Below, one piece after another: positions 1 through 18,626 of a stretch of DNA of 34,490 bases (positions are counted from its first letter, which is position 1; each line of letters opens with the position of its first letter). Position numbers and translations under genes: made by a program. This stretch comes from BD1-7 clade bacterium (lineage in GTDB: Bacteria; Pseudomonadota; Gammaproteobacteria; Pseudomonadales; DT-91): NCBI GenBank assembly GCA_902705835.1, contig CACSIN010000005.1, positions 65,316-99,805 on the forward strand. Direction: 5' to 3'. The notes below the pieces were generated by a model. It saw nothing but the letters and a program-made list of their open reading frames with translations. It was not told the origin of the DNA and did no database searches.

Positions 1-352
1 AAATAGATGCAGTTGGGGTAAGGCTGGCAGAAGACTGCCCCATTAAATAATGGTGAATATAGCGTTGATCCCACTGTTGATCGGGGGCAGCAGACTGCAA
101 ATTTGCTAAAGAGAACGCAGCACATATACCATCGTCAGTATGCGTGTAGAAAACAGCAACCTGCCCCAGTGCATCCGTCCAAGCAAATCCGTTGCCCTGA
201 GCATCCAGTAAAATACCCGCACTGATACTAGGATCATTGATTTGTATAAGTGTTTGGGAAAAAGAAGATCGATCTAAATAAGACGAGGGAATTAGCCTTA
301 CCCGCGATTGCCCGCAGCGGGTGAGGCTATGGAGGTGCAAAATAGTATTCAA
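1..352 (-). CDS. Asparagine-synthetase-like lasso cyclase (McjC/LasC type), N-terminal part, runs off left edge
   Basis: An open frame of about 117 codons runs off the left edge on the minus strand. It resembles the end of the N-terminal glutaminase-like domain of asparagine-synthetase-family lasso cyclases: a stretch reading AWTDALGQVAVFYTH, then ICAAFSL, then YIHHYLMGQSSASLTP. This mirrors the usual pattern of 'n-D-x-x-G-x-x-P-x-x-Y', a short beta strand, and a 'yL......T' segment. In lasso pathways this enzyme activates the acceptor Asp/Glu side chain with ATP and closes the macrolactam. The frame follows directly on the stop codon of the precursor gene at 353. There is no ATG. TTG at 352-350 or TTG at 340-338 are the only plausible starts in the upstream part, and the hairpin at 294-328 would then lie inside the coding region, so the true start is unresolved. 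The ATP-pyrophosphatase domain lies outside the window. An ordinary AsnB-like enzyme is the main alternative. Confidence 0.6.
   Translation of the reverse strand, partial: MNTILHLHSLTRCGQSRVRLIPSSYLDRSSFSQTLIQINDPSISAGILLDAQGNGFAWTDALGQVAVFYTHTDDGICAAFSLANLQSAAPDQQWDQRYIHHYLMGQSSASLTPTASI
294..328 (-). other. Stem-loop after the precursor gene
   Basis: Two 12-base arms (294-305 and 317-328) pair at 11 of 12 positions, with one G-U pair in the transcript, around an 11-base loop. It lies 25 bases after the precursor stop, with no T-run following, so it is not a classical terminator. In RiPP operons such hairpins commonly raise precursor mRNA relative to enzyme mRNA by stabilising or attenuating the transcript; that role here is inference. 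Confidence 0.6.
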
Positions 353-514
353 CTAACTTCTGTAGGCAGGTGTTTCAGACCCCTTTTGGTTCTGCATCGG
401 ATTCCCCTTTGTACTATGAGCAACAGAAAGTACTTCGCTGACTTCCGGCTCTTCCCAAGTACGACGTGACGCTTGAGCTTCCGTGGTTTTTTTATCTGTT
501 TTTACCGTACCCAT
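353..514 (-). CDS. Putative lasso-type RiPP precursor peptide (53 aa)
   Basis: A 53-codon ORF with start ATG at 514; an in-frame ATG at 520 is possible, but the GGGA at about 7 bases favours 514. It has a charged leader with TWEEPEVSEVLSVAHSTK followed by the candidate core GNPMQNQKGSETPAYRS. The leader has the lasso pattern: an aromatic (W20) three residues before P23, a hydrophobic at P+2 (V25), and Thr35 at P+12, which becomes the -2 Thr before Gly1 of the core. This spacing is the same as I recall for the lariatin leader. A strong promoter lies just upstream and an asparagine-synthetase-like gene follows immediately. The core ends in Ser, the residue phosphorylated in paeninodin-type peptides, and an HPr-kinase-like gene lies divergently. 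The oddity is that ring positions 7-9 are Q, K, G; the only acidic residue is Glu11. The RiPP call is inference from leader spacing and context. Confidence 0.62.
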   Translation of the reverse strand: MGTVKTDKKTTEAQASRRTWEEPEVSEVLSVAHSTKGNPMQNQKGSETPAYRS

Positions 515-520
515 ATCCAT

Positions 521-811
521 ATCCCATAATCAGAGTATTTAAATCCTGTGCGTATTATAACCAGAATGTTAAACGCTTCAACATACTGAGATGTATAAAC
601 AGTGTTTTTTGTAGATGGGATGAGTACCCCGCATCCATTATCAATTTCACACTGCCACCTTGTGTTTATAGCGTAATAGCAGCATAGATCTGGAAGCACA
701 CTGCTGATATAGGTACGATACTTCTTGAAAGCACTGGGTATTGCTTTTTACTGCCACTGATCAGCGCTACGTGCTAGTAGCAATCAATTTAAACGATGGA
801 TGTGATATTGA
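521..811. other. Divergent intergenic region of the RiPP cluster
   Basis: About 290 bases separate the divergent precursor and kinase genes. Apart from the minus-strand promoter at 554-581 I see no convincing promoter for the kinase: a TTGAAA near 725 lacks a good -10 at the right distance. The short ORFs on both strands here have no recognisable content. Confidence 0.5.
554..581 (-). promoter_or_regulatory. Sigma70-like promoter for the RiPP precursor
   Basis: On the minus strand a TTGAAG -35 box (581-576) is followed by a 16-base spacer and a perfect TATAAT -10 box (559-554). Transcription would begin near 547, about 30 bases before the ATG of the precursor gene. Confidence 0.65.
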
Positions 812-1714
812 ATGATGTATTTTTATTCTGTTTTTGGCCTTTCTATCTGCTCAGATATTGCCTTGCCATTGCAGAAGCTGGAGCACTCCGATGAAAGTGA
901 AGATACGGATATACACATCAATCAGGCCAATGTCCCTGACAAGCTTGAGCGAGTAACAGAAAAAGCCACGTTGTTCTCTGTTAATGAAGATGAGTTCTTA
1001 TTCTGTATCCCCGATGTCGGCAAATATTTGGTGACAAACGGCCAACGTATTACTTATCAAATGGCTGATGATGGCGATGCTAAAGCATTTAATACGCACT
1101 TATTGGGTTCGGTAATGGGAGCCTTGCTGCATCAGCGCGGTTTCATCGTATTGCATGCCAGTGCTATTGCGTTTGGTCGTGAGGCCTTATTGTTCGGTGG
1201 TGCATCAGGAGTAGGGAAGTCAACGATTGTTGGTGCTTTGCATAAGAAAGGCTACCCGTTTATCAGCGATGACATATCCGTACTCACAGAACGAGACGGA
1301 CAGCTGTACATCGTTCCTGGCTACCCTCACAGTCGATTGTGGGATGACAGCATGCAATCGTTATCCATCAATTCAAAAGGCATGGATACAGCCGTCAAAA
1401 GTGAAAACAAGTTTATTGTGCCAATAATCGACAGCTATCAAGAAGTGTTACCTGTTAGAGGCATCCTGCAGGTAATCCCCTCTGAAGCAGATGCTTATGC
1501 CATTGAGCAATTGGAAGGTGGGGCTGCCATTAAAGCACTACACGCAATGCTGTACCGCAAAAAAATTCGTTACGCAATACAGGGGCAGGCACAGATTTTT
1601 TCTGAATTAACCCAGCTAGTTAAACGCACAAATACTTATGGTATTCAGCGCCCGAACAATCATTGGTCGTTAGAAACGCTTGAGGATTGTTTACAGCATG
1701 CGTTCACAGAATAG
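812..1714 (+). CDS. HPr-kinase-like (HprK C-terminal fold) kinase, probable RiPP/lasso peptide kinase
   Basis: A 300-residue protein. An N-terminal half without clear motifs (about 1-105) precedes LHASAI (114-119), a Walker A loop GASGVGKST (130-138) and ISDD (151-154), the order seen in HprK-fold kinases that lack the N-terminal HPr kinase domain. Stand-alone proteins of this size occur in lasso clusters; the paeninodin kinase phosphorylates the C-terminal Ser of the precursor. The candidate precursor across the divergent promoter region does end in Ser. Two ATG codons lie side by side (812 and 815); the ribosome site is weak. The 3' end overlaps the sulfotransferase gene by 17 bases, so the two are likely cotranslated. 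An HprK-type kinase of another pathway cannot be excluded, but the context favours peptide tailoring. Confidence 0.78.
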   Translation: MMYFYSVFGLSICSDIALPLQKLEHSDESEDTDIHINQANVPDKLERVTEKATLFSVNEDEFLFCIPDVGKYLVTNGQRITYQMADDGDAKAFNTHLLGSVMGALLHQRGFIVLHASAIAFGREALLFGGASGVGKSTIVGALHKKGYPFISDDISVLTERDGQLYIVPGYPHSRLWDDSMQSLSINSKGMDTAVKSENKFIVPIIDSYQEVLPVRGILQVIPSEADAYAIEQLEGGAAIKALHAMLYRKKIRYAIQGQAQIFSELTQLVKRTNTYGIQRPNNHWSLETLEDCLQHAFTE

Positions 1715-2582
1715 CTCACTGCATTGGCTGGCCTCATACCCAAAATCAGGCAATACCTATTTACGGGTATTATTAAGCAACTACTTGTCTGATGGCGAAC
1801 CCCCCGTAGATATTAATCAACTGCCATTCGGAGACTCCATCAATCGACGAGTGAATTTTGAAGATTTTTTAGGCATTTCTATCGATGATATCTCCGTACA
1901 AGAATTAGCACGCTGCCGCAGAGAATATTGTCGGTGGTGGGTGGGTGCCATTAATGACGCTCAAAGCGATGCGTATTTTTCCAAGGTGCACAATCAATAT
2001 ATAGCGGGCCAGAGTGAGCACGCTATTTTTGCAGAAACGACACCCATGAGAGCGATTTATCTTGTACGCAACCCAATACACGTTGCTCCCTCATACGCTT
2101 ATCATAGAAACAGCAGCATTGATGAAGTCATTCACTTTATGAGTGACACGACAGCCTCTATTGCAGCCAAACGTAACCCCGATGTGTTATATCAGCACCT
2201 AGGCGACTGGAATACACATATAAAGAGCTGGACTGAGCAACAGACTATTCCTTTGCTCGTTATACGTTACGAAGATTTATGCCGAAAACCTGAAAAGTCA
2301 TTGATAAAAGTGTTAGATTTTTCGGGAATCGCTATCGAGCCCGATCGAATAGCACTGGCTGTTAAAGCATCCACGTTAACAGCGCTACAGCAGCAAGAAA
2401 AAGTATCGGGCTTTGCAGAAAAGTACCCTAAAGCTAAATCTTTTTTCGGCCGCCAAAAGGAAAACAAGCAAGACAAGACCTTGCAATTAACAAGCTCACA
2501 CCTCGAAATCTTAATTAACAACCATGGACCGTTGATGGAGCAGCTAGACTACTCTACAGATATAAAGGCTTATTGCCTTTAA
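1698..2582 (+). CDS. PAPS-dependent sulfotransferase domain protein
   Basis: A 294-residue protein taken from ATG 1698, with AGGA about 11 bases upstream; an in-frame TTG at 1680 would add six residues. WLASYPKSGNTYLR (about 10-23) is the 5'-phosphosulfate-binding loop with its Lys. KVHN near residue 96 and YLVRNP...APSYAYHR (about 121-137) form the 3'-phosphate-binding region with the conserved Arg and Ser. RYEDL follows near residue 190. It should transfer a sulfuryl group from PAPS to a hydroxyl. It overlaps the kinase gene and faces the RiPP precursor, so the peptide is the simplest candidate substrate; the core offers Tyr15, Ser10, Thr12 and the terminal Ser. The substrate itself cannot be read from sequence, and an action on a lipid or polysaccharide is possible. 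Confidence 0.82.
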   Translation: MRSQNSSLHWLASYPKSGNTYLRVLLSNYLSDGEPPVDINQLPFGDSINRRVNFEDFLGISIDDISVQELARCRREYCRWWVGAINDAQSDAYFSKVHNQYIAGQSEHAIFAETTPMRAIYLVRNPIHVAPSYAYHRNSSIDEVIHFMSDTTASIAAKRNPDVLYQHLGDWNTHIKSWTEQQTIPLLVIRYEDLCRKPEKSLIKVLDFSGIAIEPDRIALAVKASTLTALQQQEKVSGFAEKYPKAKSFFGRQKENKQDKTLQLTSSHLEILINNHGPLMEQLDYSTDIKAYCL

Positions 2583-2771
2583 AAGACTGACGCACTATGC
2601 CTGCATATTGGATGAGCCATTCCTGAGTTCAAGCGTTAACCGCAGTGTTGATTCGAGTAATTACTGAGGGTAGTGCATCAATGGATTTGCCAACAAGCGG
2701 CGGTGCCGATAAAACTCCCGTTTTTAAGGCCGGGTTTAACTCGCTCCACGTCCAAGATAATAGACCGCTCT

Positions 2772-5615
2772 TCAAGAAACCAACCGCAACCCAATCGGCA
2801 GCGCTTCACCAAACACGCGTTTAGTTTCGGCTTCATCCAGTGTTTTAACCGTGCTCACCATCTCAATCCAGCTCGCGGGTGCTTTGCTTGCGGTGAGTTT
2901 TTCTACAACTTGTTGCTGCCATTGTTCATCTACATCACGCACGCGGTCGCCGCTTTTTCGTGTCATCATCACGGCGCAGAAGGCGGCGTGAGGGTTTTTC
3001 TTCCAATCGGTGTTCAATATGGCGGGAAGCCACTGCTGTACGGTGTTTTTATCGATAACGTTGTGGGCACTACCGTGAAAGGGCGTACGTGTGGCGATAC
3101 GCCCGAGCGCCCACCAACTATTTTGTGATTCAGCCGGTTTTTCGAGCCGTTTCAACAGGCTTTCGGCCATGTTGATTTTGTCGGTGGGCGGTAATTTCTC
3201 AAGCGCGGCGAGGAGCTTGACGATGTCTTCATAGGATTTTTGCTTGCCATCGGCTTGTGTTTTACGGCTGCTGAGCTTTTGTGCATCAATGTACTGGCGC
3301 ACATCGTTGAAGATCTGTTGTTGTTGCTCGTCGCTCAATCCACCCGCTGCACGCGCCCAAAACATCCACCAGGCAGACCATAACTGGGTCTCTTGCGCGA
3401 ATTGCAGCCCTTGTTTGTAGTACGGCCAAATTTTTTCGATGCGCCATTCATCTGCGGGGTAGCCGAAGCCGGGGCGCAGGGCGTAGCCTGCCAGCGTAAA
3501 CCATACGCGTTCATGGGCGGCTGAGCGGCGGCGGCGTTTTTCATTCGTTAGAAACTGATCAAACAAGGTGCGCAGCACGGGGATTTCCCAGCTGTCGCGT
3601 TTGCCTAGGCGTTTTTCTATATCGGCACGCAGGGTTTTAACCGCTTTGGGGTTGGCTTTCTTTTTGCTGTCGCCGTAAACATCGTCGATTTTTTGTTGAA
3701 TCACATCAAAACCGTCGGGCAGTTTATCGGTGTTGGCGGGGCTTGCTTGGGCGCCGGCTTTTTGGCGTACTTCAAACGCAACATGCCAGCGTTGTTCGGT
3801 ATTGCTGATGCAATCGAGCTGCAGCGTACCGACTTCACTGAGGTTGGCGGCCAGTTGTACCACCTGCTCTTTTTTGTCGTTGTCGTTATCTATCTCAACA
3901 TCTAACCCCGCATCCATGGCAACAACCAGCGGCGGCAGTGAGATAAAGCGTTGGCTGCTGATGTCGTCGTCATTCAGTGTGATGATTTCACCGGCTTTGT
4001 AGGGGTGATCATGGGTGGTTGAATACAGGTGGAATTGAATGGGCTGGCCAAGGCGCAAGACGAACTGTCGGTCACTCAGGTGCAATTCGTGGTTTTCTTC
4101 GGTGCCTTTGGGCATGATGCAGACGGCTTGGCGGCTGTCGTCGTTATCATTGGCCAGTGCCAAAAAGAAGGTGCGTGCCGAGCCGCCGCCGATTTTTAGC
4201 TGTGCACCGCGTCGTGCTTTGGCGTAGGCAACGGCACCTTGGGCAACGGCAAGATCAGGGTTGTTGTTGTCGAGTACTTGCACGGGCGATTGCGCCCATG
4301 TGGATAACACGGTATGCGCGCGCGCGCTCAGCAGCGGGCTATTGAATACGCCACCGTTGAATAATACGGCATCAGGTATTGCAGCTTGATCAGTATCGTT
4401 AGTGAGGCTCAGAGCGTCTCGGCAAGCAGTTTGGTGTTCATTCAAAAACGCGGCGATGTGTTTGCTCACTGCTGGGTCTGCAGCATAGGGCAGGCCGAAT
4501 TCAACAACGGCGCTGCGTCGTGTATTGGGCAGTTGATCAAACGCTGATAGCGGGAAGAAGCCATCGAGTGCAATATCACGCACCCATTGTTGGGTGAGTG
4601 TGGCGCGCTTGGCACCGCCAATAAGCCGTGCGCCGCTGCCTAAAATGGTGACGTTGGCGCTGTCGGGGGCGTTATCGCTGAGTAACAGTTCTTTCGCTTG
4701 GCGGGTTTGCTGAATCAATTGAGACAGGGCAGACGCGCTGAGTTTTTTAGCGGAATTTTTGCCGTTAATTTGCTGCTCACTGTGGTGGGCAAGCGCGAGG
4801 TCAACGTTGTCGCCGCCGAGCATCAGGTGATTGCCAACGCCGATCCGTGTGAGTGAGAGTTGATCGTCTTTGCCTTTGGCGACTTTGATTAGGCTGAGAT
4901 CGGTCGTGCCGCCGCCCACATCGCAAACCAGCAGTAATCGCATTTTTGCCAGCGCTTGCTGGGCGGCATCGCCTTGGCGTGCATACCAGTCATAACACAC
5001 AGCTTGGGGCTCTTCGAGTAATACGATATTGGTTAAGCCGGCGAGTTCGGCGGCCTCTACGGTGAGTGCTCGTGCGCTTTCGTCGAAGGAGGCAGGCACG
5101 GTTACAACGATCTCTTGTTGTTCAAACGGTGCGTTGGGGTGTGCGTTGTTCCAGGCTTTTTTCAGGTAATGCAGGTAGCTGGCTGAGGCGAACACGGGGG
5201 AGACTTTTTCGACGCCGTCGGCACCGGCCCAAGGCAAGATAGGAGCAGCACGATCCACTTGCGGGTGTGATAACCAGCTTTTTGCACTCACCACTTGGCG
5301 GCCATCCACTTTGGCGCCGAGCTGGCGTGCCCATTCGCCGATAACAACCTGCGGTAGTTCACCTTGAAGGTACACGTCGGCATCCGCTGACCACGGCAGC
5401 AGCATGTCGTTAGCGTCGATTTCGCCAGCGGTAGGGTGGTATCGGAATGAGGGCAGCAGTGGGCGTTTGCCGACTTCGCCAGGTGCCACTAACTGTTCGA
5501 TGTCGAAGATTTGGCAATTATCGGCAGTGAGCGGCTGTTGTAAATCGGCATAGGCTAACACGCAGTGTGTGGTGCCAAGATCGATACCGATTAAAAACTG
5601 TGGCTGTGCCGTCAT
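2772..5615 (-). CDS. Large Hsp70-family protein with DUF3731 C-terminal region
   Basis: A 947-residue protein from ATG 5615, preceded by AAGAGA at good spacing; the longer open frame to 5681 lacks support. The N-terminus has the Hsp70 phosphate-1 loop GIDLGTTHCVLAYADL. Near residue 230 comes the phosphate-2 loop CDVGGGTTDLSLI, and a further actin-fold motif VLFNGGVFNSPLL follows. About residues 1-480 are the ATPase, then a short beta-rich stretch resembling part of a substrate domain, then a basic, Trp-rich helical C-terminus (from about 610) typical of DUF3731. DnaK is about 640 residues, so this is a much longer relative and is unlikely to act as the general chaperone. It is the last gene of the DUF2760-Hsp70-Hsp70 group, with a 121-base gap holding a hairpin. 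Its clients are unknown. Confidence 0.88.
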   Translation of the reverse strand: MTAQPQFLIGIDLGTTHCVLAYADLQQPLTADNCQIFDIEQLVAPGEVGKRPLLPSFRYHPTAGEIDANDMLLPWSADADVYLQGELPQVVIGEWARQLGAKVDGRQVVSAKSWLSHPQVDRAAPILPWAGADGVEKVSPVFASASYLHYLKKAWNNAHPNAPFEQQEIVVTVPASFDESARALTVEAAELAGLTNIVLLEEPQAVCYDWYARQGDAAQQALAKMRLLLVCDVGGGTTDLSLIKVAKGKDDQLSLTRIGVGNHLMLGGDNVDLALAHHSEQQINGKNSAKKLSASALSQLIQQTRQAKELLLSDNAPDSANVTILGSGARLIGGAKRATLTQQWVRDIALDGFFPLSAFDQLPNTRRSAVVEFGLPYAADPAVSKHIAAFLNEHQTACRDALSLTNDTDQAAIPDAVLFNGGVFNSPLLSARAHTVLSTWAQSPVQVLDNNNPDLAVAQGAVAYAKARRGAQLKIGGGSARTFFLALANDNDDSRQAVCIMPKGTEENHELHLSDRQFVLRLGQPIQFHLYSTTHDHPYKAGEIITLNDDDISSQRFISLPPLVVAMDAGLDVEIDNDNDKKEQVVQLAANLSEVGTLQLDCISNTEQRWHVAFEVRQKAGAQASPANTDKLPDGFDVIQQKIDDVYGDSKKKANPKAVKTLRADIEKRLGKRDSWEIPVLRTLFDQFLTNEKRRRRSAAHERVWFTLAGYALRPGFGYPADEWRIEKIWPYYKQGLQFAQETQLWSAWWMFWARAAGGLSDEQQQQIFNDVRQYIDAQKLSSRKTQADGKQKSYEDIVKLLAALEKLPPTDKINMAESLLKRLEKPAESQNSWWALGRIATRTPFHGSAHNVIDKNTVQQWLPAILNTDWKKNPHAAFCAVMMTRKSGDRVRDVDEQWQQQVVEKLTASKAPASWIEMVSTVKTLDEAETKRVFGEALPIGLRLVS

Positions 5616-5673
5616 GATGATGTCTCTTGTATTTCTGTTGCAGTACGCTGTCTGGATAGGAAGCAGATAGGGC

Positions 5674-5708
5674 CTGCACAATTATGCTGTGTTGCCATTA
5701 TTGTGCAG
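5674..5708 (-). other. Intercistronic hairpin between the two Hsp70 genes
   Basis: Perfect 9-base arms CTGCACAAT and ATTGTGCAG (5674-5682 and 5700-5708) enclose a 17-base loop. There is no T-run on the minus strand afterwards, so partial termination, RNA processing or a protein-binding site are all possible. Confidence 0.5.
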
Positions 5709-5736
5709 TTAATCCCTTGAATCGGTGCGGTGCGTT

Positions 5737-7659
5737 TTAGTCGCGCACGTTGAGTTCGATTTGCCAGCGTGGTGTGTCGTTTGTTTCACTGTCTGAGTCA
5801 GCATCAATGCCAATGGCTTCAAGCTTGAGCGTGCCCACTTCGGTCACGCTTGCGCTCAAGCGCACAGGTACCACTTCACCCGCGCGTCGGCCTTCCGTGG
5901 GGAGGGTAACTTGCAGTTCAGGCAGCTCTTCGAGTTCGCCATCTTGCCAATGGTCTAACTGTACGCCGGCTTGATCGTGACGGCGTGTGTTAGAGCCGAA
6001 AAACCGAAAGTGCACTGGTTCGCCAACCACTAAGCCGAATTCTGCACTGCCGGCGGCGGCTTCAGTGCCTTCTTCCATACCGAAGGGGGCAATACATAAG
6101 GCCTCTAACGGAGGTTCCATGCCAGGAATCGCTGGCATGGCACTTTCAATGCCGACGTAATAGCTATTCGCGAGGCCGCCGCGAATGCGCACGCCGTTAC
6201 CTTGTTTGGCGTAGCCAAAGTAGCTAGCGCCTGCGGCCACTGCGAGATCCAAGTCGGTTTTACCCAGCAGGCGGGCAGGCGCTGCGCCGGCATCTTGTAG
6301 CCACTGGTTAATGATGCCGAGTGTGCGTTCGGCCAATAGCGGTGCCTTGAGCACGCCGCCATTTAACAGCACGGCACTGGGTTTGATGAAGTCTGCCGCT
6401 GGTTGAGCGTCAAACCCGGCCAATGGGTCAGCCGCCATGTCTGCCATGCCGCCCGTATCCGCAGCGTTGCTGCTGCCGAAGATATCATCGGCGGCATCGG
6501 CTTGGCGGCTTAAAAATGCGGCAAGATGGCGCGAAACCGCAGGGTCTTGTGCATAGGGCAGGCCTTTTTGGCTGAGGGCCGAACGACGCGCTGCACGCGG
6601 GTGTTCATCAATTGAAACTTGAGGGAAGAAGCCTTCAACTAACGCTTGTTGTACTTCCTCTCGTGTGAGTTCGCCGCGCAGTGTGTTGCCCAGCAGTTTC
6701 GAGCCGCGGCTCGGCACAACGATTGGCACAGCTTGTGTGTCGTTGTCGACCAGCAGTTGTTCTTTGGCATCACGGCACGCATGCACGATGGCTTGAACTT
6801 GCCACGGTTGCAGCTCTTTGCCGTCGGCGGCCAGTTTGGCTTTCACACGGTAGGCAAGGGCGAGATCCATGTTGTCACCGCCGAGTAAGATATGATCACC
6901 CACCGCAACACGATTCAAGGTGAGGTTGCCATCATCTTCACTCACAGCCACTAAAGATAAATCCGTGGTACCGCCGCCAACATCCACAACCAGAATGATG
7001 TCGCCAACGTTCACTTGGTTACGCCAATCATCGCCGCAGGTTTTCAGCCAGTTGTAAACGGCAGCTTGCGGCTCTTCGAGGAGCGTGAGCTGCTCAATGC
7101 CTGCAAATTCCGCGGCTTCTGCGGTGAGTTCACGCGCGGAAGGGTCAAACGAGGCGGGGATGGTTATCGTCACTTGTTGTTGGGCCAGTGGCGCATCGGG
7201 AAACTGATGATCCCACGCATCACGCAGATGTTGCAGGTATTCAAACGTGGCTTCCATCGGCGAGATTTTTTTCACTTCTTCCGGGCTGCCAGCGGGTAAA
7301 AAGTCACTGTGGCGATCAACGCCGTTGTGGCACAGCCAACTTTTGGCCGATGCGACCAAGCGGATCGGCGTTTTACTGCCGAGGAATCGTGCAGCACCGC
7401 CGGTGATGGTTTCAGGGCTGTTATTCCACGGGAGCACCATCTCGCTCGCATTGAGTTCGGATTCATGCGCCATGTAGATAAATGATGGCAGTTGGTTCAG
7501 CGATTCAATTTGCCCAGGCTGTGTCACTTGCGGGATGGCCAGCGTATTTACCGCAGGCTCTGCGTCGCTTTCTTCGCGTAAATCGACGTAGGCCATCACA
7601 CAGTGTGTGGTGCCTAAATCGATACCGACAGCGTAACGGGTGTTGCTAGCGTCACTCAT
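5737..7659 (-). CDS. Hsp70-family (DnaK-like) ATPase, shorter paralogue
   Basis: A 640-residue protein. GIDLGTTHCVMAYVDL at about 12-27 is the phosphate-1 loop and VVDVGGGTTDLSLV near residue 220 is phosphate-2. A later SAVLLNGGVLKAPLL resembles the adenosine-side motif. An Ala/Asp-rich insertion (about 395-430) breaks the ATPase half. The C-terminal ~130 residues are beta-rich, with no helical lid or DUF3731 region, so it looks like an ATPase with a reduced substrate domain. ATG 7659 overlaps the stop of the DUF2760 gene (ATGA), indicating translational coupling. It is paralogous to the downstream 947-residue protein, sharing the loop wording GIDLGTTHCV and the order of motifs. The pair probably works together, but their role is not known to me. 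Confidence 0.88.
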   Translation of the reverse strand: MSDASNTRYAVGIDLGTTHCVMAYVDLREESDAEPAVNTLAIPQVTQPGQIESLNQLPSFIYMAHESELNASEMVLPWNNSPETITGGAARFLGSKTPIRLVASAKSWLCHNGVDRHSDFLPAGSPEEVKKISPMEATFEYLQHLRDAWDHQFPDAPLAQQQVTITIPASFDPSARELTAEAAEFAGIEQLTLLEEPQAAVYNWLKTCGDDWRNQVNVGDIILVVDVGGGTTDLSLVAVSEDDGNLTLNRVAVGDHILLGGDNMDLALAYRVKAKLAADGKELQPWQVQAIVHACRDAKEQLLVDNDTQAVPIVVPSRGSKLLGNTLRGELTREEVQQALVEGFFPQVSIDEHPRAARRSALSQKGLPYAQDPAVSRHLAAFLSRQADAADDIFGSSNAADTGGMADMAADPLAGFDAQPAADFIKPSAVLLNGGVLKAPLLAERTLGIINQWLQDAGAAPARLLGKTDLDLAVAAGASYFGYAKQGNGVRIRGGLANSYYVGIESAMPAIPGMEPPLEALCIAPFGMEEGTEAAAGSAEFGLVVGEPVHFRFFGSNTRRHDQAGVQLDHWQDGELEELPELQVTLPTEGRRAGEVVPVRLSASVTEVGTLKLEAIGIDADSDSETNDTPRWQIELNVRD

Positions 7660-9302: not shown

Positions 9303-10913
9303 TTAATCACGTTTTGGATTGGTTGCTTGCCGCACCGGCTTTGTTTCTAAAACATCCGCGTTACACTTGTACTTTTTATGCGACGCAGACGCTAACTTCA
9401 TCACTTTACAAGATTGTTTCAACACTTCGGCGGGGCGGGGCCAGTTGTCATCCCATCCGCCGTTGGATTCATCGAAGCGAACGTCTTTGAAGAGATCCCA
9501 CAAGATAATGCTGTTCGATCCGGTGTTTTTGGCACTGTTGAGTATTTCACTGAGTTGTTCGTGATCCATGATCATATCCCCCCAGCCAGGCCGGCCTGAG
9601 AGCAATCCGATGGCGAAATCAGCGGTTACTTGTACTTTTTTCGGTTGAATTGACGATTGTGCGTAGTTTGGCGCGCCTTTGACTAGAGCGTGCTCCGGTG
9701 AGCCCAAGGTGTCGTCTGGCAGTATGGCGTATGCGCCAGTTCTCAACCAAGAGAGGAATGTGCCCCAATAGAACCTTACCTGCTGGTCTAACGCACAGGG
9801 AATGAATGTTCCGTTGGCAGCGCCGCAGTCGGTTGATGATAGGTCGTAAGTCATCGCACCGATGAAATTTACTGTATCCAACTCGTTGGGGTACAACAAC
9901 GCGGTATTGTAGATAAGCCCGTAGAGATTACCGCCATACCACGCGCCGCCATAGGTGCTAACGGTTTGTGCGTTGGTTCCCCAGTTGGCGGACATTGTTG
10001 GAATTGCCCCAACTGCGGGTACTGCAATCGATACTTTCAAATCTGCGTTGGCGGCGTCAATGTTTGTGTCGATTTCGCGAAGAATTGCAGCAAATTTATC
10101 CACGGTATCTGGCATTGTTCGGGGTGTGCCGGCAATCACAAGATTATGATCATCGTCGTATACCTGATCGCCTTGCCCTTGTGTGAGTAGCTCTTCGGTT
10201 GTCATGTAGGTGATGCCGGGAGATGGCTCAACGTTGTCTGGCGTAATGCGCCATTCGTAGGCGTTGATGTCTGCGTGCCACGCTTCTTCGTAATCAACAT
10301 CGATGCCGCTAGCACCGAGGTTTGACACCATTTGAACCAGTTTTGTGTAGCTTTCACGCGCCAGTTCGGGGCTATACGTGTTATCAAACCTTGATGGGGT
10401 GTCGAGCGGGTTAGGGAAGGTATCGTATTCTTTGTCGGCGGGCCCGCAGGCATCTTTTGCACCGACGGTAATGTCGTAATATTCAGGTGAACAGCTATAA
10501 GCTGCGCCCCCCACAGAGAGATAGGTTTCTACGCCACCCGCTTTCAATGTACTAATGGCGGCCTTTAGTCGATAGAAGCTCTCGGTGTTATATGTACTGT
10601 CATCCGGTTGGCTGTCGCAGTAGAGCCCAAACAATCCTGTGCACTGTAGTGAATTGGCTTCAGGTCGGTAGTAAGCCAAGGAGGGTTGAACGAAGGATAA
10701 GATCAGCCGGTTGAAGTTTGTACCGCGGTCGCTGACATTGGATGCGAGTGATTCTAAGTTTTCTAGGGAGGCGTAACGTTCGCCGCCGGTAACGTCGCTT
10801 GGGCCGGTTAGGTAGTAACCAGCGATCACCGGTTTCCCGGCCATGGCAGCCATCGGAAGTGAAGACAATAAAATAAGCACGGTACGTGCAATCATAACAT
10901 TCACTTTTTCCAT
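9303..10913 (-). CDS. Secreted glycoside hydrolase family 18 (chitinase-like) protein
   Basis: A 536-residue protein from ATG 10913, with GAGGAAA at good spacing; the longer open frame to 11012 is rejected. A Sec signal peptide (MEKVNVMIARTVLILLSS...MAAMA) ends near residue 25, so the product is exported. GH18 barrel features appear in order: VIAGYYL, LILSFVQP, TYLSVGGAA, then SGIDVDYEE (about 202-210), then GAMTYDLSS, then a terminal IILWDLFKD. These match the strand motifs and the catalytic DxDxE with Glu209. The first Asp of the usual DGxDxDxE is Ser202 here. A chitin-type beta-1,4-N-acetylglucosaminide hydrolase is the likely role. There is no carbohydrate-binding module; the tail after the barrel is short and Cys-containing. 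It is monocistronic. Confidence 0.85.
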   Translation of the reverse strand: MEKVNVMIARTVLILLSSLPMAAMAGKPVIAGYYLTGPSDVTGGERYASLENLESLASNVSDRGTNFNRLILSFVQPSLAYYRPEANSLQCTGLFGLYCDSQPDDSTYNTESFYRLKAAISTLKAGGVETYLSVGGAAYSCSPEYYDITVGAKDACGPADKEYDTFPNPLDTPSRFDNTYSPELARESYTKLVQMVSNLGASGIDVDYEEAWHADINAYEWRITPDNVEPSPGITYMTTEELLTQGQGDQVYDDDHNLVIAGTPRTMPDTVDKFAAILREIDTNIDAANADLKVSIAVPAVGAIPTMSANWGTNAQTVSTYGGAWYGGNLYGLIYNTALLYPNELDTVNFIGAMTYDLSSTDCGAANGTFIPCALDQQVRFYWGTFLSWLRTGAYAILPDDTLGSPEHALVKGAPNYAQSSIQPKKVQVTADFAIGLLSGRPGWGDMIMDHEQLSEILNSAKNTGSNSIILWDLFKDVRFDESNGGWDDNWPRPAEVLKQSCKVMKLASASHKKYKCNADVLETKPVRQATNPKRD

Positions 10914-11531
10914 AACAGTTTCCTCAAATGTGTTCCGTCTTTTAGTGAATTCGCGTTTCGTATGAGGCGCGGCTGATTGTGCGCAATTGATGGGGGAGAC
11001 GCTGATGCACAACCCTGTGATCCGAAAGCTAGAGGTTTTTTGCTTCAGTGAACTCCAGTGGCCTACGCAACAAATTCAGTAACACTGTGCATCTCGATAA
11101 ACGCGCTACACAAGTGGGTGAACTTCCTAATACGATTGAAACGCGTAATGTTCGATGCTGTGAGGTCGTGGCAAGTTTCGCCCTATTTGAGACGGTTGGC
11201 AGAAATGTGACTTCTGTTCGTATCGGGGGTATTCAGCGGCGTGATATCGCTGCCGTGAGGGAATGCAGTGGCGGAAGAAGTAATTTTTAAAAAATTGTCA
11301 GTGTGCCTTTTTGCCGATGTTGTTGTGCCGCTAGCGCGTTAAATTTTCACAATGGCATACCAACAGCATTTTTCGATGGCTGTTTATGCACGACGTACGT
11401 TAACGCAACTCGTGCAGTCGCGGCCTCAATGTTCTTGAGGGGGGATGCCAAAGTGATGCGTGTGAACCAGCAAGTTCTTAGCAGTCGGCTTGATCGAGCG
11501 TTGCTGGAAGAGGCCAAACATAACGATATAG
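10914..11531. other. Long stretch without a convincing gene
   Basis: About 620 bases. Short plus-strand ORFs at 11048-11290 and 11303-11542 have low-complexity or implausible composition and no recognisable motif. A phrase in another frame near 11265-11335 (KKLSVCLFADVVVPLAR) reads like protein but stops at once. The stretch may hold decayed coding sequence; nothing firm can be said. Confidence 0.4.
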
Positions 11532-12089
11532 CTATAGTTTAGCTCGGCTCCATCCCCATGAATCATCGGTTATAAACCCGGAAGCTAGGCCACTTCTTAA
11601 TACAAACCCTGTACGAGAATTACCACCAAACATCCGTTTAAATGTCTCGATAAAGCTCTCAGCATCGGAAAAGGGCGGAGATAGCTCGTACTCCAGCAAA
11701 TTAAGAAACTTGCTGATAGTGTGCTTGGAATACTTGTACGTGGGTGAGAATTTGATATCCGCAATATTGGGGGTGGCGTCTCGCTCCAACCATTGTGAGA
11801 GGGTATATCCGTTGCCGAACGACTGTAGTAACGCGATGTGGGTCATATGCTGAATCAGTACAAATGAATGCCCAACCAGCTGATGCAAGCTGTAATCAAT
11901 TTTATAAACACTCGGTACGTTCATTGTTGTTTTCAATGATTCAATTAACGATCTCAAAGAGTTGCCAGATTCAATATCGCCCTGGCTGAGAAGATCAAAA
12001 ACAGACTGCGCAACCGCGTGGCATTCTGATTGATGGATAAAATCGCTACTTGCAACACGATCTAAACATTCGGTAAGACTTAAAGGCAT
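11532..12089 (-). CDS. Hypothetical protein (185 aa), unrecognised
   Basis: Start ATG 12089 is preceded by GGAGA with a 7-base gap, a good ribosome site. The protein looks soluble and mostly helical in its first half (for example ECLDRVASSDFIHQSECHAV), with a Ser/Thr/Tyr-rich middle and FIETFKRMFGG near the C-terminus. There is no signal peptide, membrane segment or known motif. It is flanked by long non-coding stretches on both sides, so no operon partner helps. Good translation signals and normal composition support a real gene, but its function is unknown to me. Confidence 0.65.
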   Translation of the reverse strand: MPLSLTECLDRVASSDFIHQSECHAVAQSVFDLLSQGDIESGNSLRSLIESLKTTMNVPSVYKIDYSLHQLVGHSFVLIQHMTHIALLQSFGNGYTLSQWLERDATPNIADIKFSPTYKYSKHTISKFLNLLEYELSPPFSDAESFIETFKRMFGGNSRTGFVLRSGLASGFITDDSWGWSRAKL

Positions 12090-12808: not shown

Positions 12809-13648
12809 ATGTCGCAAAATGCTCACAGGCTCTTACTTTTCTTCGATGATCAAAAGATCTACAAGGATGTCTTTCGTTTGTTCAAATCACTAGAACAAGG
12901 CAATTCCGATCAGATCGAAAAAATGCAGCTTGCTTTGAGCGTTAGTTTTGAAGAGGTTTGGAATAATAACTGGTTTAATCAAGAGGTCATCCCTGAGCCG
13001 ACGCACCTCTGTATTGATTTTGAAACGAGTGCTCGTGATATTCCTCCTTTTCAAGTCATTGAGTCGTTGTTCGATATTGGCATCATCGCTGCGACTATTG
13101 AAACTTTCTATGATCAGGTAGGTGAGTTTCAACAGCTTCACTTTATGGATAAATGCTTGGTCGACAAAGCGAGTTTGTATGAACGCTATCCTCGAATTAA
13201 GAGTATTCTAGCGAATGCGTTTGAAGCTGAAGACGATGAGCTTGATGACGACGGTTACGAACGTCCGAAAAAACTCAGCCGATTGATCAAGGATGAAGCT
13301 AAAAACCAGAAAGAAGCCGCTGAGCTTGTTAACGCGATAAGCGGTTTGAGTAAAGTAGCATCTGAATCTGGTACGAATCCGTTCGAGGCAGTAAAATCTG
13401 CCCTAGTAGTGAGTGCAGCGATTAGAGGACTTGCGCAAGCTCTGTTATTTGGTGTGATGACCATTCTTTTATTCAAAGGAATATGGTTGTGGATTTGCTT
13501 AACTATCGTAGCGGTAGTTGCATTGCCTATTTATCAAGTCATGCAACTAAATTCATCTGTCAGTGATGATGACGATAGTTTTATGAAAGATGATGGCGCG
13601 AATCCAGATAAGCAAGAAAAACATGAAAGCGAGGGCGTCACATGTTAA
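12809..13648 (+). CDS. Two-segment membrane protein with large N-terminal cytoplasmic domain, unrecognised
   Basis: A 279-residue protein. Residues 1-190 are soluble and acidic, with a run of Asp/Glu near 139-149, then a Lys-rich helix (about 154-170). Two adjacent membrane segments lie at about 198-221 and 224-246. The C-terminus is a very acidic, Lys-dotted tail. GAGG is only one base before ATG 12809, unusually close; no better start is visible. The gene ends inside the next one by a 7-base overlap (ATGTTAA), which indicates coupled translation and a probable joint membrane complex. There is no catalytic motif and no recognised family. Confidence 0.72.
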   Translation: MSQNAHRLLLFFDDQKIYKDVFRLFKSLEQGNSDQIEKMQLALSVSFEEVWNNNWFNQEVIPEPTHLCIDFETSARDIPPFQVIESLFDIGIIAATIETFYDQVGEFQQLHFMDKCLVDKASLYERYPRIKSILANAFEAEDDELDDDGYERPKKLSRLIKDEAKNQKEAAELVNAISGLSKVASESGTNPFEAVKSALVVSAAIRGLAQALLFGVMTILLFKGIWLWICLTIVAVVALPIYQVMQLNSSVSDDDDSFMKDDGANPDKQEKHESEGVTC

Positions 13649-14067
13649 CTGAGATCGAATGGTGGGGCGGTTTGCTTTTTATCTGGATGGCGTGGTGCTT
13701 TTCTATGCTGTTCGAGAACAACGAAAGCCAAACCAAGATTGATGTTAGTTCTGTTGCGACAATGGTTACTTTTCTTTGTGCAGCAATTGTTTTGGCGTTG
13801 TACTTTTATCCGCTAACCGATCCAGTCATGAAAAAATCCTATTTAGCTGTATCTGCGCTTGGTATTTTTTCACTGATAGTGATGTTTTTGTGGCCAGAGA
13901 AAGATGATGGCCTGCCGGATAAGGAAGTGGATAGCGATTTACAGAACGATATCGAAAATGAGGAGGATTCACTACTCTGGCTAGGGCATTTGATCATTCT
14001 TTTCCCCGTGTGTGTGGCTTTGAGTATAGGCGGATACCGATCTTATGGATTTATTCATCTTCTATGA
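13642..14067 (+). CDS. Four-segment integral membrane protein, unrecognised
   Basis: A 141-residue protein with four hydrophobic segments at about 7-25, 35-55, 65-85 and 113-133, separated by charged loops, the last of them strongly acidic (about 87-110). The start codon overlaps the stop of the preceding gene, so the two are a translationally coupled pair. There is no motif for transport or enzyme activity. It may be a small inner-membrane partner of the preceding two-segment protein; that is inference from the overlap alone. Confidence 0.7.
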   Translation: MLTEIEWWGGLLFIWMAWCFSMLFENNESQTKIDVSSVATMVTFLCAAIVLALYFYPLTDPVMKKSYLAVSALGIFSLIVMFLWPEKDDGLPDKEVDSDLQNDIENEEDSLLWLGHLIILFPVCVALSIGGYRSYGFIHLL

Positions 14068-14177
14068 TCTCTCCTCTCACTTATAGTGCCTTAGCGTGAA
14101 CACGTGCGCAGTAGAATGGCATGGGGGTATCGTCGACCGGATGACGGCTTTTCAGGTTTGATTCTCAGGCATACATC

Positions 14178-14202
14178 AAAAACGGGGTCAGGCCTTACAT
14201 TT
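14178..14202 (+). repeat. REP-like repeat, copy 1
   Basis: A 25-base unit with core ACGGGGTCAGGCCTTACAT. It is the exact inverted match of copy 2 at 14592-14616. Confidence 0.75.
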
Positions 14203-14392
14203 GGCATGCTTCCGATCGGTTATATGTAGTTATGAACGTCACATTGACTCAAAATCCGGTATTGCCCGCTTGACGCTTTATCCTGCTAATGGCGACAAAT
14301 GAATCACGTTTCGTGAGCGGTTAGTTGTAAAAATTGGCTTGTATTTTGGTTCTCGCCAGGGTTATCTGGAAGATAAAGTTGATCGTAATTTT

Positions 14393-14539
14393 ATGGGTAA
14401 GATCCACGTCCGCATAGTGATTCCTGGCGAGCTTGATGTCGATGACGATTTCATCAATAAGATCCTCATTGATTGCAAAAACAATGCAGAAGGCTCTCTG
14501 GCCTATTACGAAGTCGAAGGTTGGGATGAACTGTACTGA
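14393..14539 (+). CDS. Small ORF inside the inverted-repeat segment (48 aa)
   Basis: From ATG 14393 the frame gives 48 residues with a beta-alpha-like pattern: KIHVRIVIPGELDVDDDFIN, then a helix, then LAYYEVEGWDELY. The open frame reaches back to TTG 14339, adding 18 plausible residues. There is no clear ribosome site at either start. It is acidic and probably cytoplasmic. It could be a real small protein carried by the element, or a surviving fragment of a longer one. Family not recognised. Confidence 0.38.
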   Translation: MGKIHVRIVIPGELDVDDDFINKILIDCKNNAEGSLAYYEVEGWDELY

Positions 14540-14591
14540 TCGATGCAGTGTTGAGTTTCAAGTGCAAGGACAGTGAGGTCGTTTGACTGTG

Positions 14592-14616
14592 AAATGTAAG
14601 GCCTGACCCCGTTTTT
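14592..14616 (-). repeat. REP-like repeat, copy 2
   Basis: The exact inverted match of copy 1 at 14178-14202. Plus-strand sequence includes TGTAAGGCCTGACCCCG. Confidence 0.75.
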
Positions 14617-14884
14617 CCTTAGCATAGTTCAAGTCGAGGGGCGGTTTTTTCCTGTGACTGCAAACGGCAGTGCTGCTTTGTTGGTGAAGTAGGTGGGCTG
14701 TTGATATTTCAGGGTAGCAACGCTGGCTGCCGGAAGTGCGTTTACTTTCGTTTCATGTTATGCAGGCGTTATTGCCTCATTGCCCATTTGTGAAGCAATG
14801 CGATAAATCGGCTGTGTTTACCATTGAGGTAATTGAGGCAGTGCTACACACAACACGGCGTAGCACTATCACCCATGTTTTACA

Positions 14885-15862
14885 TTATCGGTTAAGAATG
14901 GTGACAACTCTTTGAAGCAGCACTAATACCAGTATGAAGGCAATCGTGTATAAGAGAATCGTAGATTGAAAGCTGAACATTGATTCAGGCTCTGCTTTAA
15001 TCGGCTTCGTCTCGGTTTTTTCTATAAATACGTGTTCTGTAAAGGATGGATCTGATAACAGATTCTTGGCTGAGTTCTCAACGGTTCTTTGAAAAACACC
15101 ACTCACCATATGATCCGCCGAAGCTCGATTTTTTTCTATTGTTTCGCCAAACCCTTCTGATTGATATATGCCTAGTGTTTCTCCTGACAGATTCGCAACG
15201 CGCCATTTGATATTTGCTTCTATCATGGCGTAGCTAAATTTGTAGCTCTTGAAGTCAGTGCCATCGAGCTGAGTGAAATTTCTGTCGCGTCCGAGGGTCT
15301 TGCCGCACACCTCTATATAAATTGATTCAATACTGGGTTCGATAAGTAACGCTTCAGTTCTAATGTTTTCGCCGAGCGTCTTGGATACCTGTGGTTGGCT
15401 AGATATGCCACGACTCCTAAGACCTTTAATAACAGAGCTTAGTAATTGTCTCTGATCTGGCAAAAAGCGAGAGTGTACTCCTTCAATATGCGAATAATTC
15501 ATGTTGCTCGGACCGGTGCACTCCTTGCCATAAAAGTACTTCCCGATCTTGAAATCTTGTTGGGCGTCTTGCAGCTCATTCATTGTTGGCAGGAAAACAT
15601 GAATGGGGCGAGTTGACAGCCCCTTGGGTGTCAAAATTTTCAAATCAGCGGGGCCGATAATCACGCGCTTCTTTCTATTCAGGGTGAATGAGTTATTCCC
15701 GTCGATATCGAGAACTTGTGTTTGCTCAGCTGACGTTGGCTCTTTGTCAGAATAGAAAACGTTTCCATTGGCATCGACGTGTTTGTATATCTTCGCATGA
15801 ACCATTTGAGTGCTAACAAGCGCCGTTATACATAGAATAAGTGAAAGAATATCCCTAGCCAT
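14885..15862 (-). CDS. DUF4124 domain envelope protein with C-terminal membrane anchor
   Basis: A 325-residue protein from ATG 15862, with GGAG six bases upstream. The signal peptide (about 1-23) is followed directly by the DUF4124 sequence KIYKHVDANGNVFYSDKEP, a small beta-rich domain common in exported gammaproteobacterial proteins. The middle (about 60-285) is of unknown fold, with an 'EVCGKTLG' stretch. A hydrophobic segment near residues 299-317 (STILLYTIAFILVLVLL) anchors the C-terminus, leaving the bulk in the periplasm. It lies between REP-like copies 2 and 3, with no operon partner. The role is unknown; DUF4124 alone does not define activity. Confidence 0.78.
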   Translation of the reverse strand: MARDILSLILCITALVSTQMVHAKIYKHVDANGNVFYSDKEPTSAEQTQVLDIDGNNSFTLNRKKRVIIGPADLKILTPKGLSTRPIHVFLPTMNELQDAQQDFKIGKYFYGKECTGPSNMNYSHIEGVHSRFLPDQRQLLSSVIKGLRSRGISSQPQVSKTLGENIRTEALLIEPSIESIYIEVCGKTLGRDRNFTQLDGTDFKSYKFSYAMIEANIKWRVANLSGETLGIYQSEGFGETIEKNRASADHMVSGVFQRTVENSAKNLLSDPSFTEHVFIEKTETKPIKAEPESMFSFQSTILLYTIAFILVLVLLQRVVTILNR

Positions 15863-15980
15863 TTTTACTCCAAAATAACCTCTGTTGAAATCGTCCCTGT
15901 AGATAGGGAAAGAGGCATAACATATTGGCTATGTCTTTAAATTTCAACCTGCATGGCTTGGATATTTCACTGGGTATTTG

Positions 15981-16005
15981 AAATGTAAGACCTGCCCCTG
16001 ATTGT
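15981..16005 (-). repeat. REP-like repeat, diverged copy 3
   Basis: The plus strand reads AAATGTAAGACCTGCCCC and onward, matching copy 2 in the same orientation with several changes (GG to GA, A to C, and within the T tail). Confidence 0.55.
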
Positions 16006-16069
16006 GGCCTGAGCTGGCTCTTGACCAATTCTTAGATCTGCCGGAAGTTGCTGTTGATAACGCTACGTG

Positions 16070-16094
16070 ACATTTAAGGCCTGACTCTGTTTTT
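16070..16094 (-). repeat. REP-like repeat, diverged copy 4
   Basis: ACATTTAAGGCCTGACTCTG followed by five T matches copy 2 in the same orientation with a few changes. It lies directly before the transposase remnant. Confidence 0.6.
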
Positions 16095-16100
16095 CTTGCA

Positions 16101-16463
16101 GCGTTCGGGCAGAGCAAGCGTGATGCCATATTGCGCTGGCGAGAGTTTGTGAAAGAAGGTAAAGGCCAGCCGCCGATATGGAAAAAGCTGAAGAATCAGA
16201 TTTATTTGGGCAGTGATACGTTCGTTGAAGACATGCAATGCAAGCTACTGCCTGATCAACCACTTGCCGGTGTTCCCAAGATTCAAAAGCAATCACCTCC
16301 GAAGCCGTTAACGTACTTTCAGGATAGATATGCGTCAAGAAATGAGGCATTGGCGCACGCATACTTGAGTGGCCATTACACGCTTGCTCAGGTAGGGGCG
16401 CATTTTGGCGTTAGCTATGCGACTGTGAGTAGGGCTGTGAAAGCGCTTGAGAGTGAGATATAA
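16101..16463 (+). pseudogene. C-terminal remnant of a REP-associated tyrosine transposase (RAYT, Y1_Tnp family)
   Basis: About 120 codons run without a start from AFGQSKRDAILRWREFV through IYLGSDTFVEDMQCKL to a terminal helix-turn-helix-like LAQVGAHFGVSYATVSRAVK. This is the typical C-terminal tail of RAYTs, which are normally about 230-330 residues with an N-terminal HUH motif and catalytic Tyr. Both are absent, and the reading frame meets a stop inside the repeat copy just upstream. The break falls at the REP-like repeat, as if the 5' part was lost by recombination between repeats. An ATG at 16131 could in theory start a small DNA-binding protein, but a truncated transposase is the simpler reading. 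Confidence 0.75.
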
Positions 16464-16802
16464 GGTCTTTCTCTACTATGTTCTGGCAAGTCGTTCATAT
16501 CGAAAACGTTAGTTTTTTCTGATAACTAGTATGGCTTAGCCGCTAAGGTAAAAAAGAAAGGTGAAGCACTTTGATGAACAGGTGTGCGATGAACTACACC
16601 AAGCGTAGGCACAGTTATGTTTATCCCACTAGATGTTTCAATAGCGATGTTGCTGCTTACTCAGTAAAGATCAAGCTTTAACGCACGCTCATCGATGGAT
16701 AGCCACTATTTCTCGCAGCCACCTGTGATGAATGTTTGTCTCGCGTTATTGTAGAATGCATTTTTCACTCGATTTACTGCAGCACTATGAGAGACGTAAA
16801 AG
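16464..16802. other. Intergenic region
   Basis: About 340 bases with no gene seen. A TAGAAT at 16752 upstream of the next gene could be a -10 box, but no matching -35 is clear. Confidence 0.4.
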
Positions 16803-17588: not shown

Positions 17589-17664
17589 GGGTGGGAGGCC
17601 TTGCGGGTATGGGATTGTGCATTGATTTTGCTTTTTCAATGGATGCGATGGAAACCCATTTATC

Positions 17665-17690
17665 GGTTGTTGATCTCGGTTGTTGATCTC
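17665..17690 (+). repeat. Perfect 13-base tandem duplication
   Basis: GGTTGTTGATCTC occurs twice in a row, immediately upstream of the open frame of the exonuclease gene. It may be replication slippage or a spaced binding site. Confidence 0.8.
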
Positions 17691-17701
17691 GAGCGATTGA
17701 T

Positions 17702-18436: not shown

Positions 18437-18494
18437 AATGTCCCGCGAGTTTAAAGGTCTATTTTTTGTTTCTTTAAAGAAGATCTCTTGCCGC

Positions 18495-18522
18495 TTTGAA
18501 ATGTGGCGCGTTTTGTTACAAT
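18495..18522 (+). promoter_or_regulatory. Candidate extended -10 promoter for the ABC exporter operon
   Basis: TGTTACAAT (18514-18522) contains the TG extension and a 5/6 -10 box. A poor -35 TTTGAA lies 16 bases upstream. It sits about 105 bases before the permease gene. Confidence 0.42.
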
Positions 18523-18626
18523 CCTAAATTCCCTTGCACTGGGTATGAGGCAAATTGATTTGCCGTTTCTTGTGCTAAGCCAGGCCACGCAACCGGACGT
18601 GCGTTAATCACACAGAGCCAACATCT

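Follow-up and report, generated by a model that had tools for sequence, protein, structure and literature searches.

A probable lasso-type RiPP precursor gene beside a divergent cyclase-like gene and an HprK-like kinase in a BD1-7 clade gammaproteobacterium

Gene content and layout of the locus

The DNA analyzed here, referred to as the window, is a stretch of 34,490 nucleotides (G000:C5:65316-99805) from the genome of a BD1-7 clade bacterium, which is assembled to 5.06 Mb in 30 contigs. The BD1-7 clade is placed in the family Spongiibacteraceae (Gammaproteobacteria) by NCBI taxonomy. Base 1 of the window adjoins an ambiguous base (N) and lies inside a cyclase-like gene (C), with the partner genes of the latter situated just outside the window. 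A stretch spanning the left flank and the start of the window (L002, in which window base 1 is position 10317) was examined over 13 kb. The following features were recognized:

Window 353-514, minus strand: precursor gene A, 53 codons plus stop, with a WEEPEV leader motif
Window 515-520, minus strand: alternative in-frame upstream start (MD) of A; the ATG is absent in the sister species
Window 554-581, minus strand: promoter-like TTGAAG-N16-TATAAT, identical in the sister species
Window 1-352, minus strand: 5' part of the cyclase-like gene C (Asn_synthase family); the whole gene is L002 8995-10668 (557 aa)
Window 293-329, minus strand: 13-base inverted repeat within the start of C
L002 8727-9002, minus strand, left of the window: B1 (PqqD/RRE), 91 aa, overlapping the end of C
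Window 812-1714, plus strand, divergent from A: HprK-related kinase with H, GxxGxGKS and DD motifs
Window 1680-2582, plus strand: sulfotransferase (Sulfotransfer_1; match 2.1e-17)
Window 1-2650: right part of a 7.7-kb cassette common to the sister species; a second alignment reaches 2716
L002 5280-10316: left part of the cassette, with genes for an Asp/Asn hydroxylase, GT8, Sulfotransfer_3, JmjC_2, B1 and most of C

The gene order on the minus strand is A, C and B1, and to the left of this run the plus strand encodes, in order, an Asp/Asn beta-hydroxylase, a GT8 protein, a Sulfotransfer_3 protein and a JmjC_2 protein. Neither an ABC transporter nor a signal-peptidase domain was recovered among the L002 proteins scanned.

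The 7.7-kb cassette is conserved at about 91% (90.7%) identity in one sister species, G004 (L002 5280-12966 against L026 6881-14581). Beyond its ends the compared flanks do not align between the two species, except for the slightly longer right end (window 2716), indicating that the cassette has different surroundings in each genome. The eight cassette genes other than A, all found by profile, are open in both species. Comparison of six genes between the two species gave synonymous divergences (pS) of 0 for A, 0.120 for C and 0.124 for B1, versus 0.316-0.363 for the Sulfotransfer_1, GT8 and Sulfotransfer_3 genes, i.e. C and B1 have diverged at synonymous sites about one-third as much as these three tailoring genes of the same cassette. 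The lower pS of the A-C-B1 block suggests recombination in this block or constraint on it. With respect to mobile-element ends, no tRNA is present in the window, and the cassette ends were compared by alignment. At L002 1181-3915 a small ORF separates two phage-tail-collar domain proteins, and a periplasmic-binding protein follows; since the alignment with the sister species ends before reaching the collar genes, these were not counted as part of the system. On the minus strand next to the cassette end (window 2772-7659) is an adjacent pair of Hsp70-like genes, of which the first has a DUF3731 C-terminus.

The precursor gene and its leader

A first-pass annotation of this DNA had proposed a hidden lasso-type precursor of 53 codons at 353-514, and a frame of 53 codons and a stop is indeed found there on the minus strand. 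An upstream in-frame ATG would extend the product to 55 aa (353-520); as the corresponding codon is ACG in the sister species, the start at 514 is the one shared by both. The leader features ascribed to this ORF, namely a W-x2-P-x-V motif and the spacing of T(-2) and G1, were read correctly: the motif is WEEPEV and the leader ends in HST-K ahead of G1. WEEPEV conforms to the lasso leader motif [Y/W]xxPx[L/V/I] for the RRE, and the Thr at -2 lies 12 residues past the motif Pro, the distance being 10-15 in 12 canonical parses. Leaders with a motif of the same form were also found in other loci, so that this part of the annotation likewise held.

The leader-plus-Thr pattern occurred in 8 of 912 ORFs of 30-100 aa from five partly overlapping stretches: the window ORF twice, its sister-species copy, the two other lasso-type precursors of the genome and three unrelated ORFs. 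By itself the pattern is weak evidence; what convinces is its combination with the place of the ORF before C and B1. It is very improbable that the ORF is spurious and the true precursor lies elsewhere. Such a reading could draw on the changes between the two species, which are three nonsynonymous and no synonymous in the A frame and give no sign of codon-level selection, and on the neighboring non-coding DNA, which is also about 96% identical, such that the conservation of A is not outstanding. Against it, the leader motif has the same form and spacing as in the two other precursors of the genome, A directly precedes C, and the pattern scan of L002 recovered no second ORF of this kind. In the sister species A is open and of the same length, with a S10A change in the core. 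A precursor search of genome contigs recovered the sister species only (one of 55 pattern stretches confirmed). The window ORF is thus very probably a real lasso-type precursor gene of a kind that is easily missed. A match of the precursor to Colicin_E5 (0.082; 13.6 bits against a cut-off of 25) was rejected as a chance hit.

The promoter-like TTGAAG-N16-TATAAT reported upstream is also present, with TTGAAG starting at 581 and TATAAT ending at 554, about 40 bases ahead of the ATG at 514. It is the best-scoring (10/12) of three such sites in 900 bases; the shuffle mean is 1.9, and this count does not exceed chance. The hairpin announced along with it exists as well (arms 293-305 and 317-329, 92% complementary) and is located inside the cyclase frame just past the precursor stop. 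Its fold is only modestly better than that of shuffled sequences (z -1.41; 19 of 200 shuffles at least as good). A reading as a terminator was rejected, no terminator-like site being detected in window 1-900; the inverted repeat at 293-329 might possibly act as an RNA-level device.

Related loci in the same genome and in relatives

Two further loci of the genome carry A, B1, B2, C, an HprK-like kinase and a sulfotransferase-like gene. The first, C1 (L024), encodes B1, B2, an ATP-grasp protein, A with a C-terminal Ser, C, the sulfotransferase-like protein and the HprK-like kinase, with an ABC transporter further along (13425-15146). The second, C2 (L025), encodes B2, B1, the sulfotransferase-like and HprK-like proteins, then CobS/CobT, C and A, again with a C-terminal Ser. 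The B2 proteins of C1 and C2 match PF13471 at 5.9e-17 and 1.6e-22.

Among order-level relatives, the genomes G678 and G746 each contain at least four long C genes in the stretches examined and together eight WxxP precursors. Their loci combine HprK-like and Sulfotransfer_1 genes (sometimes fused) with Asp/Asn hydroxylase genes; Sulfotransfer_3 and GT8 are fused in L047 and L051. G678 has two and G746 five PqqD matches, and each has one PF13471 gene above the cut-off, a second match in G678 scoring 22 bits, below the 26-bit cut-off. The B2 of G746, where Pfam was tested, carries an NTP_transf_5 domain, and the G678 protein resembles it; in Firmicutes lasso clusters, fusion of a nucleotidyltransferase to B2 has been described (PMC8498205). 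The C gene of L047 lies 1.27 Mb from B2 in G678 and that of L079 1.5 Mb from B2 in G746, and from this gene content one B2 appears to serve several loci in these genomes. Parts of both form lasso-type super-loci (G678:C1 1.42-1.49 Mb and G746:C1 3.39-3.44 Mb; L048-L051, L074-L076), in which several pairs of precursor and cyclase genes occur together with kinases, sulfotransferases and a single strong B2.

The predicted core and its ring acceptor

Cleavage after T-K predicts the core GNPMQNQKGSETPAYRS, extending from G1 to S17, with a calculated mass of 1863.853 Da in linear form and 1845.843 Da after loss of water. Positions 7-9 are Q7, K8 and G9, with neither Asp nor Glu, and the sole acidic residue is E11, two to four positions beyond the usual ring-closing place; an acceptor at 7-9 is stated as general (PMC7280977, PMC9266682). 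The lack of an acid at 7-9 had been left unmentioned in the first-pass annotation. The same parse applied to 13 other precursors placed an acid at 7-9 in 12 of them, a proportion biased upward because the ORFs were picked by leader motif near C genes and some screens also required the later Thr; the exception, L079, has no suitable Thr. The canonical parse arises in 7-78% of shuffled tails, depending on the precursor. Left out before the count were L106 8574-8822 (motif YKTPRF; a D8 parse by eye) and L103 8721-8816 (31 aa, no suitable Thr), and no convincing precursor was seen for L054, L107, L108 and two of the three L104 C genes.

When aligned by eye, E11-x3-Y15 coincides with the predicted acceptor-x3-Tyr arrangement of L047, L051, L049 and L050; L048 and L076, which are among the six precursors next to the closest C clade, do not have it. 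Given the Tyr four residues after it, as in the four relatives, Glu11 is the best acceptor candidate, and the alignment hints that it might be equivalent to the acceptor of the relatives in a core that grew on its N-terminal side. The sister species retains E11 next to the changed position 10. No lasso rings larger than 7-9 turned up in the portions of the literature returned by our search; the unprecedented ring of metanodin concerns an Asn at position one (PMC12670498), and according to a review, production drops significantly when the size of the ring is changed by one residue (PMC13352647).

A divergent cyclase-like protein

The asparagine-synthetase-like gene noted directly after A starts with TTG at 352, abuts the stop of A and runs off the window, and encodes 557 aa in the genome. 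Its product matches the Asn_synthase Pfam model at 5.4e-14 and keeps the SGGLDS, GLGGDEG and YPLL stretches of the synthetase half along with the conserved Arg near the end; the N-terminal half is shortened. With the lasso cyclase model it scores 46.5 bits against a cut-off of 525, a threshold that the two other cyclases of the genome also fail to reach (281 and 404.5). Of 52 alignment columns that are conserved in 14 or more of 16 other C proteins it retains 26, and of 261 columns that do not vary among six of these proteins it retains 73. Between the two species C (pN 0.025, pS 0.120) and B1 (pN 0.023, pS 0.124) are under purifying selection, and from these sequence features we think that C is likely to be an active but unusual enzyme.

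Searches with C recovered few relatives. At E 1e-10 only two of 56 relatives were hit, its own genome and G004, and the two other cyclases of its own genome were missed; among 369 class genomes at 1e-12 its own genome alone was returned, among 398 phylum genomes at 1e-8 three including its own, and among 390 order genomes at 1e-3 sixteen including its own and G004. Two plasmid records matched at 23-24% identity, and no solved structure was matched by sequence at E 0.1. The best matches outside the genus among the 390 order genomes come from G678 and G746, both of one other family, with 24-28% identity to six of their C proteins (E 1e-18 to 1e-26). The C protein of L052, from a third family, is at a similar distance (23%, 1.9e-19), and the pairwise E values to the two other cyclases of its own genome are 3.6e-5 and 0.26. 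In a tree the window C occupies a branch of 2.47 within a multifurcation and attracts a long-branch warning, and hence no sister group is claimed for it.

Such divergence bears on whether C might carry out some modification other than lasso formation, e.g. closing a head-to-tail Gly1-Ser17 macrocycle, making a side-chain link or changing the C-terminus. A C protein so divergent that even the other cyclases of the genome are missed at E 1e-10, a core devoid of the canonical acceptor, and the description of a RiPP with C-terminal nitriles in a paper that names asparagine synthetase 12 times (PMC13060819) are in keeping with this alternative; however, the closest relatives of C occur near precursors that combine T(-2) with an acid at 7-9, and both B1 and the leader are of lasso type. 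We regard it as unlikely.

B1, and B2 at other loci

A B1 (RRE) gene, which the first-pass annotation had suggested looking for beside the cyclase on the left, was found there overlapping the end of C. Its product is a discrete RRE protein, as in lasso peptide loci: it matches PqqD at 2e-16, its best NCBIfam model is lasso_PqqD_Bac (3.9e-20; 71.8 bits, under the 80-bit cut-off), and it matches the solved chains of the lasso PqqD chaperone 9x90_B (1.4e-10) and TbiB1 (2e-9). The B1 calls in L002 and L024-L026 rest on Pfam too. The transglutaminase-like B2 sought at the same place was not recovered in the 13 kb of L002, and none of the six PF13471 matches of the genome (E<=1) lies on the contig of the window; two B2 genes over the cut-off are found in the other loci of the genome. 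Absence of any B-protein or RRE gene on the left side, together with lack of a conserved leader elsewhere, had been named as refuting the assignment; this combination did not occur, as the RRE is present and the leader shared, with B2 absent. In the sister species, too, two B2 genes exceed the cut-off, and neither shares a contig with its cassette; the two species have 92-94% identity in the stretches surrounding B2. Three further members of the genus and one of the family gave no PF13471 match at E 0.01.

The paeninodin RRE prefers WxxP, and related RRE/kinase systems that discriminate Y from W are described as coexisting in one genome (PMC13381572). Since all three precursors of the lasso-type loci in the present genome have WxxP, cross-recognition between the loci and sharing of B2 appear plausible.

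The missing B2, the missing acid at 7-9 and the shortened N-terminal half of C could alternatively point to a decaying lasso locus, in which B2 was lost, the acceptor was lost or shifted, C is eroding and the precursor is no longer matured. The purifying selection on C and B1, the eight open cassette genes besides A in both species and the retention of the cassette between different flanks in the sister species argue against decay, which we hold to be quite improbable.

Kinase and other tailoring genes

In an alignment the kinase displays the H...GxxGxGKS...DD residues expected of a paeninodin-type kinase, and these are the residues named for BsfK (PMC10368454); its scores with the family models are below the cut-offs (HprK_rel_A 44.4 against 200, Hpr_kinase_C 20.8 against 33.3). 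In the linear precursor, the residue that paeninodin-type kinases phosphorylate is the C-terminal Ser (PMC8498205, PMC10368454), and the core of window A ends in Ser17, just as the two other precursors of the genome end in Ser. BsfK acts on Ser3 (PMC10368454), and for this reason the phosphorylation site in window A is not certain. The nearest relative of the kinase in the set is the C1 kinase of its own genome (33% identity over the full length, versus 28% for G678/G746), which raises the possibility of a mixed origin of the cassette. The cassette hydroxylase shares 46-47% identity with three G678/G746 genes and 31% with the G617 hydroxylase; Sulfotransfer_3 (38-41%) and GT8 (31-33%) also have counterparts in the G678/G746 loci, and B1 and Sulfotransfer_1 are about equally distant from the own-genome and G678/G746 sets.

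Sulfation of the core Tyr might be predicted from the gene content, only as a lead. A core Tyr is present in window A and in seven of the eight G678/G746 precursors (not L075), and the two other cores of the genome are without Tyr even though their loci carry sulfotransferase-like genes. Sulfotransfer_3-type genes occur near L047, L048, L050/L076 and L051, and none was found in the stretches around L049, L075 and L079, so that their match to the core Tyr is imperfect. Among the literature matches listed, none was a lasso-focused paper on tyrosine sulfation.

Comparison with known systems

One close comparison is with the paeninodin-type phosphorylated lasso peptides of Firmicutes, with a putative one in S. 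yanoikuyae. They share the WxxP leader, discrete B1, HprK-like kinase and C-terminal Ser with the present locus, and their clusters sometimes include sulfotransferase and nucleotidyltransferase genes (PMC8498205; PMC13381572). Unlike them, the cassette is without B2, its core is without an acid at 7-9 and its C is very divergent; its additional hydroxylase, JmjC and GT8 genes go beyond that type. The Bsf cluster of the Gram-negative Bradymonas sediminis likewise combines A, B1, B2 and C with a kinase of the H-G-G-G-K-S-D-D motif, but has Ile(-2), a phosphorylated Ser3 and its own B2 (PMC10368454). The linear polyphosphorylated peptides (LPP) of Bacillota resemble the cassette in their RRE, HprK-like kinase, lasso-like leader motif and coexistence with lasso loci; they differ in having YxxP, a SipW-like peptidase and no cyclase (PMC13381572), whereas here WxxP and a C gene are present and no signal-peptidase domain was detected in the proteins scanned. 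The G678/G746 multi-precursor loci, with one strong B2 per genome, share the WxxP leader, C, HprK-like kinase, Sulfotransfer_1, Sulfotransfer_3, GT8 and Asp/Asn hydroxylase, and differ in the acid at 7-9 (seven of eight tabulated precursors) and in the NTP_transf_5 domain of B2, tested with Pfam in G746.

Proposed pathway and its implications

By its defining features the peptide cannot be filed as a lasso peptide, as both an acid at the acceptor position and a B2 in the cluster are wanting. Of the earlier proposal of a lasso precursor with its cyclase, the run of A, C and B1 in one stretch survives; a B2 was not recovered in the 13 kb of L002, and the predicted core has no acid at 7-9. The locus very probably works through the same B1/C logic as lasso peptides, and we read the ORF as a lasso-type (B1/C) RiPP precursor with a protease in trans and an 11-residue ring or another macrocycle. 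The best explanation, which we hold with moderate confidence, is that the 53-codon ORF is a lasso-type RiPP precursor of the kind that an HprK-like kinase and sulfotransferases modify, with B2 supplied in trans. The product would probably be an unusual, decorated lasso-like peptide.

In the corresponding pathway, B1 would bind the WEEPEV motif of the leader and the kinase would phosphorylate the C-terminal Ser17 of the linear precursor, with the hydroxylases, GT8 and sulfotransferases potentially adding further groups. A B2 from locus C1 or C2 could then cut in trans behind T(-2)-K(-1). The divergent C would next activate a carboxylate, most likely that of Glu11, and join it to Gly1, possibly with threading of the tail. 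The full version of this scheme, in which a divergent cyclase closes the ring at residue 11 rather than 7-9 in a satellite locus that borrows its B2, and a kinase, two sulfotransferases, two candidate hydroxylases and a glycosyltransferase decorate the peptide, is put forward tentatively, and we consider it rather doubtful as a whole.

Whether the ring closes at residue 11 is the point of greatest interest, since closure at Glu11 would break the stated 7-9 range of lasso rings and make available a cyclase that forms larger ones. Genome mining that requires A, B and C to be complete in one cluster would overlook satellite loci of this type if B2 acts in trans. The recurrence of the kinase, sulfotransferase, hydroxylase and GT8 set next to several precursors suggests a peptide family with extensive decoration. 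A separate locus, L104 (G522:C1 541000-560900), contains three close C genes (9767-11845, 15839-17545 and 17506-19203) together with B1, B2, two HprK-like kinases and one plausible precursor.
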